Positions 25,284 through 30,804 of a stretch of 64,000 nt of DNA are shown here, one piece after another (the first letter of the stretch is position 1; every line of letters starts with the position of its first letter). The notes beneath the pieces are model-generated. The model searched no databases. It saw nothing but the letters and a program-made list of their open reading frames with translations, and had not been told where the DNA came from. This DNA is from Allofranklinella schreckenbergeri (lineage in GTDB: Bacteria > Pseudomonadota > Gammaproteobacteria > Burkholderiales > Burkholderiaceae_C). The stretch lies in NCBI RefSeq assembly GCF_003703475.1, contig NZ_RDQM01000001.1:1-64000 (forward strand), written 5' to 3'. Position numbers and translations under genes: made by a program.

Positions 25284-26108
25284 ATGCACATCTCCATTCA
25301 AGGCCATCCGCTTTACGCCTACACCGGCGGCGCCGTCCACAAGCCGGGCCAACCCTGGCTGATCCTCATCCACGGCGTGCTCAACGACCACAGCGTCTGG
25401 GCGCTGCAAAGCCGCTGGTTTGCACACCACGGCTGGAACGTGCTGGCCATCGACCTGCCCGGCCACGGCCGCAGTGCGACCAGTGAAGCGCCTGCCAGCG
25501 TGCAACAAGCCGCCGACACCATCGCCGCCCTGGTGCACACGCTGGACGACGCACCGCTGGCGCTGGCCGGGCACAGCTTTGGCTCGCTGATCGCGCTGCA
25601 AGCGGCGGCCCAGCTCGGCCCGCGTGTGCAGCGCCTGCTGCTGCTGGGCACGGCAGCGCCCATGCCTGTCTCGCCCGCGCTGCTGGAGCTGTCGCAAAGC
25701 GCGCCGGAAAAAGCCATGCACCTGGTCAACGTGTTTTCGCGCAGCACCCTGGCACCGCCGCCCTCGGCACTGGGGCCGGGCACCTGGCCCTATGGCATGG
25801 GCATGGCGCTGGGGCGGCGCGTGCTGCGCAGCAATCCGCGCGAAAACATCTTTCACAAAGGCTTTGTGGCCTGCAACAGCTACGAGGGCGGGCCAGAGGC
25901 CATGCGCCAGGTCAAGGCGCGGGTGTTGGTGCTCAGCGGCAGCCAGGATCAGATGACGCCGCCCAAAGCCAGCGCGCCTTTGCTTGACGCGGCGCGAGAA
26001 GCAGGCGTGGCGTTTGCCTGCGAGCGCATCGCCTGCGGCCACAACCTGATGACCGAAGCGCCCGACGCCACGCTGGATGCCATGCGGCGCTTTTTGAGCG
26101 CGCATTGA
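25284..26108 (+). CDS. Alpha/beta-fold hydrolase
   Basis: The 274-aa cytoplasmic protein has the oxyanion-hole HGVLNDHSVW near residue 31, DLPGHGRS near residue 65, and the nucleophile elbow AGHSFGSLIAL (Ser near residue 97). The late Asp is in LSGSQDQMTPP and the catalytic His in CGHNLMTEAP near residue 253. The triad is complete, so it should be active, but the substrate cannot be deduced. It lies 41 bp after the ABC ATPase on the same strand, so it may share the transcript. A very similar-looking class member at 39021 is a different subfamily. Confidence 0.82.
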   Translation: MHISIQGHPLYAYTGGAVHKPGQPWLILIHGVLNDHSVWALQSRWFAHHGWNVLAIDLPGHGRSATSEAPASVQQAADTIAALVHTLDDAPLALAGHSFGSLIALQAAAQLGPRVQRLLLLGTAAPMPVSPALLELSQSAPEKAMHLVNVFSRSTLAPPPSALGPGTWPYGMGMALGRRVLRSNPRENIFHKGFVACNSYEGGPEAMRQVKARVLVLSGSQDQMTPPKASAPLLDAAREAGVAFACERIACGHNLMTEAPDATLDAMRRFLSAH

Positions 26109-28394: not shown

Positions 28395-29147
28395 ATGCAC
28401 AGCAGTGCGCTCGTGCTTTTTTCGGGCGGGCAGGACTCGGCCACCTGCCTGGCCGACGCCCTCACCCGCTACCCGCGCGTGGAAACCATCGGCTTTGATT
28501 ACGGCCAGCGCCACCACGTCGAACTCCAACAGCGTCAGGCCGTGCTGGACGCCCTGCGCCAACGCTTCCCGCAATGGAGCCAGCGCCTGGGGCCAGACCA
28601 CATGATTGGCCTGGATGCGCTGGGCCAGATCAGCGACACCGCCCTCACCCGCGAATGCGCCATCACGCTGGAGCAAAGCGGCCTGCCCAACACCTTTGTG
28701 CCCGGGCGCAACCTGGTTTTCCTCACCTTTGCCGCTGCCCTGGCCTACCGGCGCGGCCTGCAAGCCATCGTCACCGGCGTGTGCGAAGCCGACTACTCCG
28801 GCTACCCCGATTGCCGCGACGACACCATGAAAGCCATGCAAGTGGCTTTGTCGCTGGGCATGGCCTGGCGGCTACTCATCGAAACGCCCCTGATGTGGCT
28901 GGATAAAGCGCAAACCTGGCAACTGGCCCACCGCCTGGGCCAGCAGGCCGACCCGGCGGGCGGCGGCGATGCGCTGGTGCAATTGATCGTCGAGCACAGC
29001 CACACCTGCTACCTCGGCCAGCGCCAGCAGCGGCACGATTGGGGCTATGGCTGCGGGCAATGCCCCGCCTGCCAACTGCGCGCCAGCGGCTGGGCGCGCT
29101 GGCGTGGCGAACAAGGTGGCGCAGCGCCCCTTCTCACAACCGCATAA
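28395..29147 (+). CDS. queC: 7-cyano-7-deazaguanine synthase
   Basis: QueC uses ATP and ammonia to convert 7-carboxy-7-deazaguanine into preQ0 for queuosine in tRNA. The 250-aa product has the PP-loop [16 protein letters not shown] near residue 8 and the conserved [27 protein letters not shown] and DYSGYPDC motifs. A C-terminal zinc site is formed by a Cys in SHTCYLGQ and the Cys cluster YGCGQCPAC near residue 220. No other queuosine gene is present in the window. It is 9 bp after yajQ. Confidence 0.95.
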
Positions 29148-29220
29148 GCCTGCGCACAGCCGCCCGGCGCCCTGCTGGCTGTGCATTAGAATGCGCGATT
29201 TGCCGGCCCCAGGCTGGCAA

Positions 29221-29548
29221 GCCCGAGTGGTGGAACAGGTAGACACAAGGGACTTAAACCATTTGAGCCTTCGGCGCGGAAACGCCCGAAGTGAAGCCCG
29301 TCAAACTCGGCGAACGCCCTGGGTCTCCCAACCCGAGCCAACGCCGAGCCAAGCCCGGTGATGGCGCACAAGCGCCCATCGCCAGGAAGGTGTAGAGAGC
29401 AGACGGCGGGCGCCTAAGGCTGTCCAGCTATGGCGAAGGCGTGCTCCAGCCCACGAACAGCGCACACGCGCTGGCGGCGAAAGCCGAAGTGGGACGAAAA
29501 TCCCTCGGCCGCAAGGCCGTGCCGGTTCGATTCCGGCCTCGGGCACCA
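29221..29548 (+). tRNA. tRNA-Leu(UAA) interrupted by a group I intron
   Basis: Exon 1 is 29221-29255 and exon 2 is 29497-29548, giving an 87-nt mature tRNA with encoded CCA. The acceptor GCCCGAG pairs with CUCGGGC. The spliced anticodon arm is GGGA-CUUAAAA-UCCC with anticodon UAA, and there is the long variable arm typical of tRNA-Leu. The intron lies between U34 and A35, inside the anticodon. Unspliced RNA cannot be a working tRNA. A possible -10 hexamer (TAGAAT, 29187-29192) precedes it. Confidence 0.95.
29256..29496 (+). ncRNA. Group I intron (IC3-like), 241 nt, no ORF
   Basis: The 5' exon ends in U and the intron ends in G (29496), as group I splicing needs. Pairings visible by eye are listed here. 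P1: CUU (29253-29255) with GAG (29265-29267), including the U-G wobble at the splice site. P2: CUUCGG (29269-29274) with CCGAAG, capped by a GAAA loop. P3: GCCCGUC (29296-29302) with GACGG. P4: CUCGGCG (29306-29312) with CGCCGAG (29342-29348). P7: GAGCA (29397-29401) with UGCUC (29442-29446). P9: CCCAC (29450-29454) with GUGGG (29489-29493). The layout and opening (AAA...UUUGAGCCUU) resemble tRNA-Leu introns of cyanobacteria and plastids. No homing endonuclease is encoded. Confidence 0.9.
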
Positions 29549-29573
29549 CCCTCGGTGCATTGCAAAAACATCA

Positions 29574-29599
29574 GCCGCCCTTGGGGCGGCTTCTTTTTT
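29574..29599 (+). terminator. Rho-independent terminator of tRNA-Leu
   Basis: GCCGCCC and GGGCGGC form a perfect 7-bp stem with a tiny loop, followed by TTCTTTTTT. It lies 26 bp after the tRNA CCA end. Confidence 0.88.
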
Positions 29600-29736
29600 C
29601 GCCAGTTGGCTAATCCTTCCCAGGGCACGGTGCAGCCCAACAAAAGCCCGCACAAAGCCCAAAAATGCGAGCGATGAAACCCGCTTCACCGTCCGGCCAG
29701 ACCAGCACCCGGCCAAAGCCTGGTGGCTTGCTTCCC

Positions 29737-30804
29737 ATGTCTTTACGTTTACCCCCCTTTCTCTCTTTTTGCGCCCCAGTGGCGGCCTGCTTGGGCGTGT
29801 GCCTGACGCTGGCCGCGCCCGCTGCGGCAGATGGCGCGCCCCAGGCCACAGCCCGCGCGCCTGAGCAGACTGCGACTGAAGCCGCTTGCACTTGTCGCAA
29901 CGCACGGCTGGATGTGGTGGTGCTCGGCTCGGGCGGGCCGGAGCTGAGCGATCAGCGCGCCTCCACCGGCTACCTGGTGCGTGAGGACGGCAAGGCGCGC
30001 TTCATCATCGATTTCGGCGCGGGCGCTTCGCTCAACTTCGAGCGCGCGGGCGGGCGCATTGAGGATTTGCACGCGCTGCTGTTCACGCACTTTCACGTGG
30101 ATCATTCCAACGATTTGCCTGCGCTGGTCAAGGCCGCGTTCTTTACCAACCGCCGCGCCGATTTGCCGCTGTATGGCCCCACGGGCAGCGCCACCATTCC
30201 CACCACGCCGCTGTTCGTAGAGCGCCAGTTTGGCGACAAGGGCGTGTACCCCTACCTGTCGGACTTCCTCACGGGCGAAGCGGGCTTTGCCCTCAAGCCC
30301 GTGGCGGTGGATGCCAGCCACGCGCAGCCCAAGCTGTTCAGCACGCAGGTGGCGGGCTTCACGCTCAAGGCTATTGCGGTGGAGCACGGCCCCATGCCCT
30401 CGCTGGGCTGGCGGGTGGAAAAAGACGGCTGCGCAGTGGTGGTTTCGGGCGACACCAGCAACGCGGGCAAGACGCTGGATGTGCTGGCCCAGGGCGCGGA
30501 TGTGTTCATCGCCCACAACGCCGTGCCCGAGCACAGCCACGACGAGGTGGCGCTGCACCTGCACATGACGCCGGGCGAGATTGGCCGCATCGCCCAGCAC
30601 ACGGGCAGCCGCAGCCTGGTGCTGTCGCACTTCATGCGCCGCACCGATGGTGCGCACGCAGAAACGGCTGCGGCCATCCGCCAGCACTACCGCGGGCCGC
30701 TGGCCTTTGCGCAGGATTGCGAGGTGTATTCGCTGCAAAGCGGCCAGCGCATCGACTCTTGCGCTGGCCCGCGCCGTGCGCAGCGTCAAGGCCAAAAGGA
30801 TTGA
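29737..30804 (+). CDS. Exported metallo-beta-lactamase-fold hydrolase
   Basis: The 355-aa product carries an N-terminal signal peptide (hydrophobic run ending TLAAPAAADG near residue 34). The ATG at 29737 is chosen so that this signal leads the protein. The metallo-beta-lactamase fold shows the zinc motif FTHFHVDHSND near residue 122. Later metal ligands are likely the Asp in VVSGDTSN and the His in LVLSHFMRR. The arrangement resembles RNase Z/arylsulfatase-like MBL proteins, but the export signal implies a periplasmic job. Substrate unknown. It converges on the DASS transporter with repeat R6 between. Confidence 0.82.
   Translation: MSLRLPPFLSFCAPVAACLGVCLTLAAPAAADGAPQATARAPEQTATEAACTCRNARLDVVVLGSGGPELSDQRASTGYLVREDGKARFIIDFGAGASLNFERAGGRIEDLHALLFTHFHVDHSNDLPALVKAAFFTNRRADLPLYGPTGSATIPTTPLFVERQFGDKGVYPYLSDFLTGEAGFALKPVAVDASHAQPKLFSTQVAGFTLKAIAVEHGPMPSLGWRVEKDGCAVVVSGDTSNAGKTLDVLAQGADVFIAHNAVPEHSHDEVALHLHMTPGEIGRIAQHTGSRSLVLSHFMRRTDGAHAETAAAIRQHYRGPLAFAQDCEVYSLQSGQRIDSCAGPRRAQRQGQKD

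Follow-up and report, generated by a model that had tools for sequence, protein, structure and literature searches.

Results

A Group I Intron Interrupts the Anticodon Loop of tRNA-Leu(UAA)

The window, i.e., the whole 64-kb stretch of DNA analysed, carries a tRNA-Leu(UAA) gene on the forward strand at positions 29221 to 29548, interrupted after U34 by a 241-nt intron (29256 to 29496, +). The 5′ exon (29221 to 29255, +) ends in U34, at the point where intronless relatives join, and the 3′ exon (29497 to 29548, +) runs from A35 to the CCA end. With introns allowed, ARAGORN called the gene as tRNA-Leu(taa), intron (36,241), and folded the 87-nt spliced exons into a canonical tRNA-Leu(UAA) cloverleaf; with introns disallowed, no call was made. 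The original prediction had read an insertion of this length between a final exonic U and a final intronic G, with a canonical tRNA left upon its removal, and this was exact to the nucleotide (29255, 29496). Splice boundaries throughout are as placed by ARAGORN, four rows called tRNA-Phe being re-read as Leu(UAA) with the boundary shifted by two. Upstream of the gene lies queC (28395 to 29147, +), while a probable terminator, recognized by eye as a GC hairpin followed by a T-run (29574 to 29599, +), and a metallo-beta-lactamase-fold gene directly downstream (29665 to 30804, +) complete the locus. Elsewhere in the window, an ARAGORN call of tRNA-Ser(act) at 25416 to 25505, inside an alpha/beta hydrolase gene, has no counterpart among the genome's RF00005 matches and is probably false.

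The intron is almost certainly of group I. The Rfam model RF00028, searched against 29150 to 29650 (501 nt), matched 29246 to 29418 at 31.5 bits (E 2.7e-6). A covariance match, as the original prediction had anticipated, was therefore found, but its score is below the gathering score of 50, so that routine annotation misses the gene; at gathering thresholds no group I match was returned in the window. The same model gave no match in a search of the whole source genome and did not list the gene, at E up to 0.5, in a scan that included it with 1.5-kb flanks (L001). Hence, Rfam by itself gives weak evidence, which varies with the stretch searched. The cut-off is a convention and no defining feature of the ribozyme, and we kept the group I class on the strength of the E value and of anatomy and covariation, the latter two amounting to far more than chance.

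The window intron retains every named core pair. Across 24 related genes, 95.9% of the cells in 55 named pairs, spanning P1 to P9b with the P3/P7 pseudoknot, held standard pairs, and two-sided changes were seen in 25 of the 55; none of 500 shuffles reached any of five pairing measures, and slid structures had 30 to 42% of cells paired. P1 (29253 to 29267, +) joins exon CUU to the guide GAG with U.G at the 5′ splice site (29255/29265), and was taken by direct reading, the guide being off by one base in three sequences of the 24-gene alignment. The P2 hairpin (29269 to 29291, +) showed two-sided changes in seven of eight pairs. The 5′ strand of P3 (29296 to 29302, +) pairs with its aligned 3′ strand (29405 to 29411, +), with 95.1% of cells paired and two-sided changes in four of six pairs. 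For P7, the 5′ strand (29395 to 29400, +) holds a bulged A, which we take by homology to be the guanosine-binding site, and pairs with the aligned 3′ strand (29443 to 29447, +) in 100% of cells, with two-sided changes in two of five pairs; it reads GAGC/GCUC in the window and GACU/AGUC in some relatives. The alignment further placed the P4-P5 domain with the J4/5 and J5/4 adenosines (29306 to 29348, +), P6/P6a (29349 to 29390, +), the P8 hairpin (29412 to 29434, +), and P9/P9a/P9b (29451 to 29492, +). The pairing of P1, P2, P3, P4, P7, and P9, originally drawn by eye, thus holds in the window and finds support among the relatives. The intron ends in G, and its compact size and lack of P5abc are as described for subgroup IC3 (PMC11835236), to which it may belong.

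The genome from which the window comes spans 2.82 Mb in 30 contigs, with a stated completeness of 99%, and had 48 tRNA matches. Its other tRNA-Leu genes carry the anticodons CAA, CAG, TAG, and GAG, and the intron-bearing gene was the only UAA gene found; a weak partial tRNA match (C1:177906) received no ARAGORN call. As no second UAA gene was found, splicing of the window pre-tRNA should be required, and it would yield the UUA decoder, most likely autocatalytically with GTP.

tRNA-Leu Introns Are Widespread and Laterally Distributed

Of 399 genomes of the order, 40 contained a match to the intron query (E up to 0.001). With introns allowed, ARAGORN called Leu intron genes in 25 of the 40, with Leu(UAA) in 23 (one of them first called as Phe and then re-read) and Leu(CAA) in 3; some matched places had no intron tRNA call. 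Other hosts in the matched genomes were Arg(CCU), CAU-anticodon tRNAs, and one Ser(UGA). A group I intron after U34 of tRNA-Ser(UGA) (L117, genome G230) scored 28.2 bits against RF00028, below the cut-off. A scan of named genomes, with a pattern fitting only one of the two P7 types seen, gave at least 117 stretches and at least 113 loci with a Leu intron gene. Among the stretches listed, 76 were Leu(UAA), 34 were Leu(CAA), 3 were Phe calls that are Leu(UAA), and 4 had no call, and their records were nearly all labelled Proteobacteria; two metagenome bins labelled Mycobacterium and Chloroflexi may be contamination. The 139 bacterial Leu introns counted measured 213 to 259 nt, except for one of 455 nt, about twice the usual length, in a Leu(UAA) gene (L116, genome G351).

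With 25 of 399 genomes of the order and at least 113 loci in named records, the intron is not the exception in a Comamonadaceae-like genome that the original prediction had supposed. The question it raised of vertical or lateral origin is answered towards the latter by introns that are identical between Lysobacterales and a genome of this order, by genus mates with different intronless genes, by the lack of a tRNA in the flanks fetched for queC of nine related genomes, and by the conjugative elements described below. Most intron-bearing UAA genes have the stem AAGGGAC in common across taxa, unlike the intronless genes resident in the genus.

Searches with the window gene returned no phage record covering 80% of it and nine plasmid records covering at least 80%, the nine listed at 98% coverage being Mycetohabitans. 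The intron query matched 1,269 plasmid records, and 10 of the 12 rows listed showed a match of one type, represented by L418:2501-2608, in which about 108 nt resemble the 3′ part of the window intron (73.5%). This segment occurs on enterobacterial and Acinetobacter plasmids, and on one plasmid it lies between IS26 and an ATPase gene beside aac(3)-IId, a possible trace of its origin. Among viral contigs, 55 IMG/VR stretches (L251-L305) held the intron core motif, many with intron-bearing tRNA genes; 30 of these tRNAs were called Leu(UAA), and the others Lys, Thr, and more. A virion structural protein is encoded near L300, and an endolysin and an integrase near L264. A few of the 30 viral Leu(UAA) introns fall among Achromobacter introns and may be prophage borders. 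The 490-kb Agrobacterium phage Atu_ph07 has an unannotated tRNA-Leu(UAA) with a 278-nt intron (L384:1495-1856). Phage group I introns observed by 2014 were all in protein-coding genes, according to a passage of one review (PMC3984707).

Many Related Introns Lie beside Split Host tRNAs or Conjugation Genes

Among the named loci listed, 36 of 111 Leu intron genes were preceded, mostly at 180 to 250 nt, by the 5′ half of an intronless tRNA-Leu gene that breaks off in the anticodon loop. The 36 include two halves (L227, L232) that are degenerate or unusually near, and leave out L230, where the match is exon 1 of a neighbouring intron-bearing gene. No half was found in 67 of the 111 despite at least 400 nt of upstream sequence, and 8 had under 400 nt. 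Under a strict loop pattern, a half preceded 29 of 103 genes with at least 400 nt upstream, versus none of 36 intronless Leu(UAA/CAA) genes, mostly from genomes of the order. At 33 loci (29 of the named set and 4 others), a half with its own host-specific stem stops in the loop, where the element end begins. That end is conserved within each type, reading TCTGTTTTGTCAAGTCC or similar for UAA and ATAGGGACTT or similar for most CAA, and the spacers measured 158 to 196 nt at 31 of the loci and 210 and 253 nt at two.

Downstream, on the opposite strand, trbI, trbG, trbF, trbL, and trbE accompanied 25 of 114 genes, beginning 260 to 322 nt from the intron gene (900 in two cases); among the other 89, trb genes were absent in 66 with enough sequence to show them, and 23 had under 1.5 kb of downstream sequence. 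In Variovorax sp. WDL1, the region downstream of the intron tRNA (L142:3074-7808) holds an OLD-type AAA nuclease gene split by an IS5 transposase and followed by a UvrD-like helicase; the two resemble an anti-phage pair, presumably Gabija.

Both halves of the host tRNA were found on one contig, with the element between them, in G013 (82 kb), G373 (67 kb), and Ottowia beijingensis (46 kb). In G013 and G373, a tyrosine integrase adjoins the 3′ half, so that att core in tRNA-Leu, trb operon, tyrosine integrase, and two att halves are all present. Rejoining the halves restores a whole tRNA-Leu(CAA), which in G013 matches the intronless G004 gene exactly. In O. beijingensis, the halves sit in a Gly-Cys-Leu tRNA cluster and rejoin into a 93-nt UAA gene resembling that of several of the window's genus mates; this record has its integrase-like match distributed over frames, and a tRNA search found no intact UAA gene besides the intron-bearing one on the element. 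The elements carrying these relatives are Tn4371-family-like ICEs, and where halves are present the intron-bearing gene is very probably an element-borne replacement tRNA. All seeds were intron-bearing, a design that would miss elements with an intronless replacement. A seed-free search by one element end matched 2 of the 399 genomes of the order, both with the intron and both already known, and none of 369 genomes of the class; element-end patterns had no match in IMG/VR.

Leu(CAA) Introns Present a C-G Pair at the 5′ Splice Site

In all 38 Leu(CAA) genes, a count in which some named records may be closely related to G013 and G373, the 5′ exon ends in CUC and the guide reads GAG, which places a C-G pair at the 5′ splice site. 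UAA rows read CUU/GAG in 137 cases (4 of them second copies of counted genes) and CUU/GGG in one, with one row misread. Shifting the splice point in the CAA genes would not yield both a CAA anticodon and a final intron G. The U.G pair at the group I 5′ splice site is held by textbook rule to be required, and the G-U wobble is described as a strong requisite in the related Azoarcus intron (PMC6274277). Conservation of CUC/GAG suggests that the CAA introns may nonetheless splice at C-G, and these 38 natural introns offer test material for the rule.

In trees, CAA introns nest within UAA introns. In a tree built without the viral rows and without five long-branch rows, the CAA set needed two changes, with a Nevskia UAA intron (L225) inside it, and a single clade was not rejected (p-AU 0.273). 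The closest neighbour of this Nevskia intron in the tree is the Leu(CAA) intron of a Solimonas (L147), its sister, which looks like a reversal of the anticodon or of the host gene. J5/4 has U before two adenosines in all 30 readable of the 38 CAA introns and CAAC in 91 of 105 bacterial UAA rows (8 CAA and 5 UAA rows being off motif). Since five further UAA rows and 19 of the 30 viral ones share this U, we dropped the idea of a J5/4 change compensating for C-G.

Origin of the Window Copy

Seven genus mates (G001-G003, G006-G009) have different, intronless UAA genes; G005 has the same intron-bearing gene at the same place as the window, and G004 a relative of the gene elsewhere. In G005's near-identical locus, the metallo-beta-lactamase-fold gene is absent at that place. 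The pattern GGNACTTAAAATNCC for intronless UAA genes was matched in none of 10 genomes in the genus, the native genes reading CGGACTTAAAATCCG, and the flanks fetched with queC from nine related genomes (1.5 kb, shorter in one case) contained no tRNA. By QueC, the window stands closer to O. beijingensis (80%) and Ottowia sp. oral taxon 894 (74%) than to any of the eight genus mates in which a match was found (62 to 69%); G002 had none.

The careful tree put the window intron in a supported clade with 37 other Leu(UAA) introns. Of these 38, 21 have a half or trb genes, and the remaining 17 comprise some loci of which little flanking sequence was available; branching inside the clade is mostly unresolved. 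A grouping of the window intron with that of Ottowia sp. oral taxon 894 in a quick tree was not recovered in the careful tree. The 64 kb of the window contained neither a half-tRNA nor trb genes, the G013 integrase had no match there, and the flanks of the gene match no element flank. The simplest reading is that the window copy comes from an element-borne replacement tRNA of which no element remains nearby, and on balance its clade points to such descent. The copy would then be an orphaned replacement tRNA, the native UAA gene having been lost and the element having disappeared since.

Ordinary vertical inheritance of a tRNA-Leu intron lost in most relatives, its association with elements being incidental, would suit the host tRNA, which is the same as in cyanobacteria and plastids (PMC4476775), and the several lineages in which the intron gene sits beside tRNA-Cys and tRNA-Gly. 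In O. beijingensis, however, that very cluster is the site of the element. The identical introns in this order and in Lysobacterales already strain this account, and the intronless UAA genes of the genus mates, their queC without a tRNA, and the tRNA halves and conjugation genes at relatives make it improbable. A less remote explanation, though still an unlikely one, is that homing or reverse splicing moved the intron alone among resident tRNA genes, and that ICEs caught interrupted genes by chance. The hosts of related introns, Leu(UAA), Leu(CAA), Ser(UGA), Arg(CCU), and tRNAs with anticodon CAU, are so varied that introns must at times have passed from one tRNA to another. The bacterial Leu introns counted, the single 455-nt case apart, are nevertheless too short for a homing enzyme, and the shared stem AAGGGAC beside differing resident genes argues for transfer of whole genes, although site preference could do the same.

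Finally, the window gene could be a non-functional relic, UUA codons being read otherwise. Its Rfam score below the cut-off would allow this, but core pairs that are intact here and covary in relatives, canonical tRNA exons, and a genome given as 99% complete with no other UAA gene found render it highly improbable.

Discussion

Intron, tRNA halves, core, conjugation genes, integrase, and rejoined empty sites can all be read directly in the DNA, and together they suggest how the intron may serve the element. An ICE would recombine at the anticodon loop of tRNA-Leu, with the core CTTAAAATC for UAA and CTCAAAA for CAA, and its insertion would cut the host tRNA in two, leaving the 3′ half far from the 5′ half. 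The element would supply its own full tRNA-Leu near its left end, with the anticodon loop interrupted by the intron, and the spliced RNA would restore both loop and tRNA. As the intron follows nucleotide 34, the target core is absent from the replacement gene at the DNA level. A core masked in this way would hide the replacement from the integrase, permitting neither self-insertion nor a second element and leaving no intact target. This masking role, to which the geometry points, appears reasonably probable. It would not be absolute, given the further insertions near the halves in G425, with two intron-bearing CAA genes 5 kb apart, and in G426, with two 3′ halves. As a whole, a laterally moving gene family whose mobile members are replacement tRNAs of ICEs, masked by the intron, is the likely explanation of these data.

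In its broadest form, the proposal is that group I introns act as a DNA-level disguise of conjugative elements, making the element essential, safe from its integrase, and resistant to a second element, and that a sister set guards tRNA-Leu(CAA) at the price of splicing at C-G instead of U.G; to this we give an even chance. Bacterial tRNA group I introns are often seen as neutral parasites. The proposal offers a selective reason for their patchy, lateral spread, in that the intron would be a working part of a mobile element. Hosts may come to depend on an element-borne tRNA, and such introns would explain genomes that seem to lack tRNA-Leu(UAA) in routine annotation.

The elements around the relatives resemble known Tn4371-family ICEs, ICE KKS102-4677 and ICEbphKF708, in att and tRNA-Leu target as well as in IncP/Ti-plasmid-type conjugation genes and a tyrosine integrase, as far as the passages on them describe (PMC9960961, PMC6563109). 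The att given there for ICEbphKF708 and ICE KKS102-4677 is GATTTTAAG (PMC6563109, PMC9960961), the reverse complement of CTTAAAATC, the UAA anticodon loop, and ICE KKS102-4677 is described as integrating mainly in tRNA-Leu (PMC9960961). In Cupriavidus basilensis KF708 (L187), we found a half, an intron-bearing UAA gene, and, 6.6 kb on, trbI, with the same left end, and we infer that this element is ICEbphKF708. The word "intron" does not occur in the main texts of PMC9960961, PMC6563109, PMC2789088, or PMC3384475, and titles and opening lines of abstracts in the literature searched gave no link between group I introns and integrative elements, although an earlier description is possible. The intron-bearing replacement tRNA on Tn4371-family-like ICEs is described here; it may have been described before, the primary ICE KKS102-4677 paper lying outside the literature covered.

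Proteobacterial tRNA group I introns include those of Azoarcus tRNA-Ile and Agrobacterium tRNA-Arg, and Vepritskiy et al. in 2002 reportedly found one in a gammaproteobacterial tRNA-Leu(UAA). The cyanobacterial and plastid tRNA-Leu intron presumably shares with the window intron the site after U34 and the P1 scheme. Further group I introns are described in tRNA-Ile2 of Acidovorax and Burkholderia (PMC8450103). All of these proteobacterial introns are likewise small group I introns in the anticodon loop; the passages on published proteobacterial tRNA introns mention neither a split host tRNA nor an ICE, and Leu(CAA) and Ser(UGA) were not met there as hosts. The tRNA-Leu host is also that of cyanobacteria and plastids (PMC4476775), but unlike the introns found there, the window intron is GC-rich, belongs to a family spread laterally among proteobacteria, and has relatives on ICEs.
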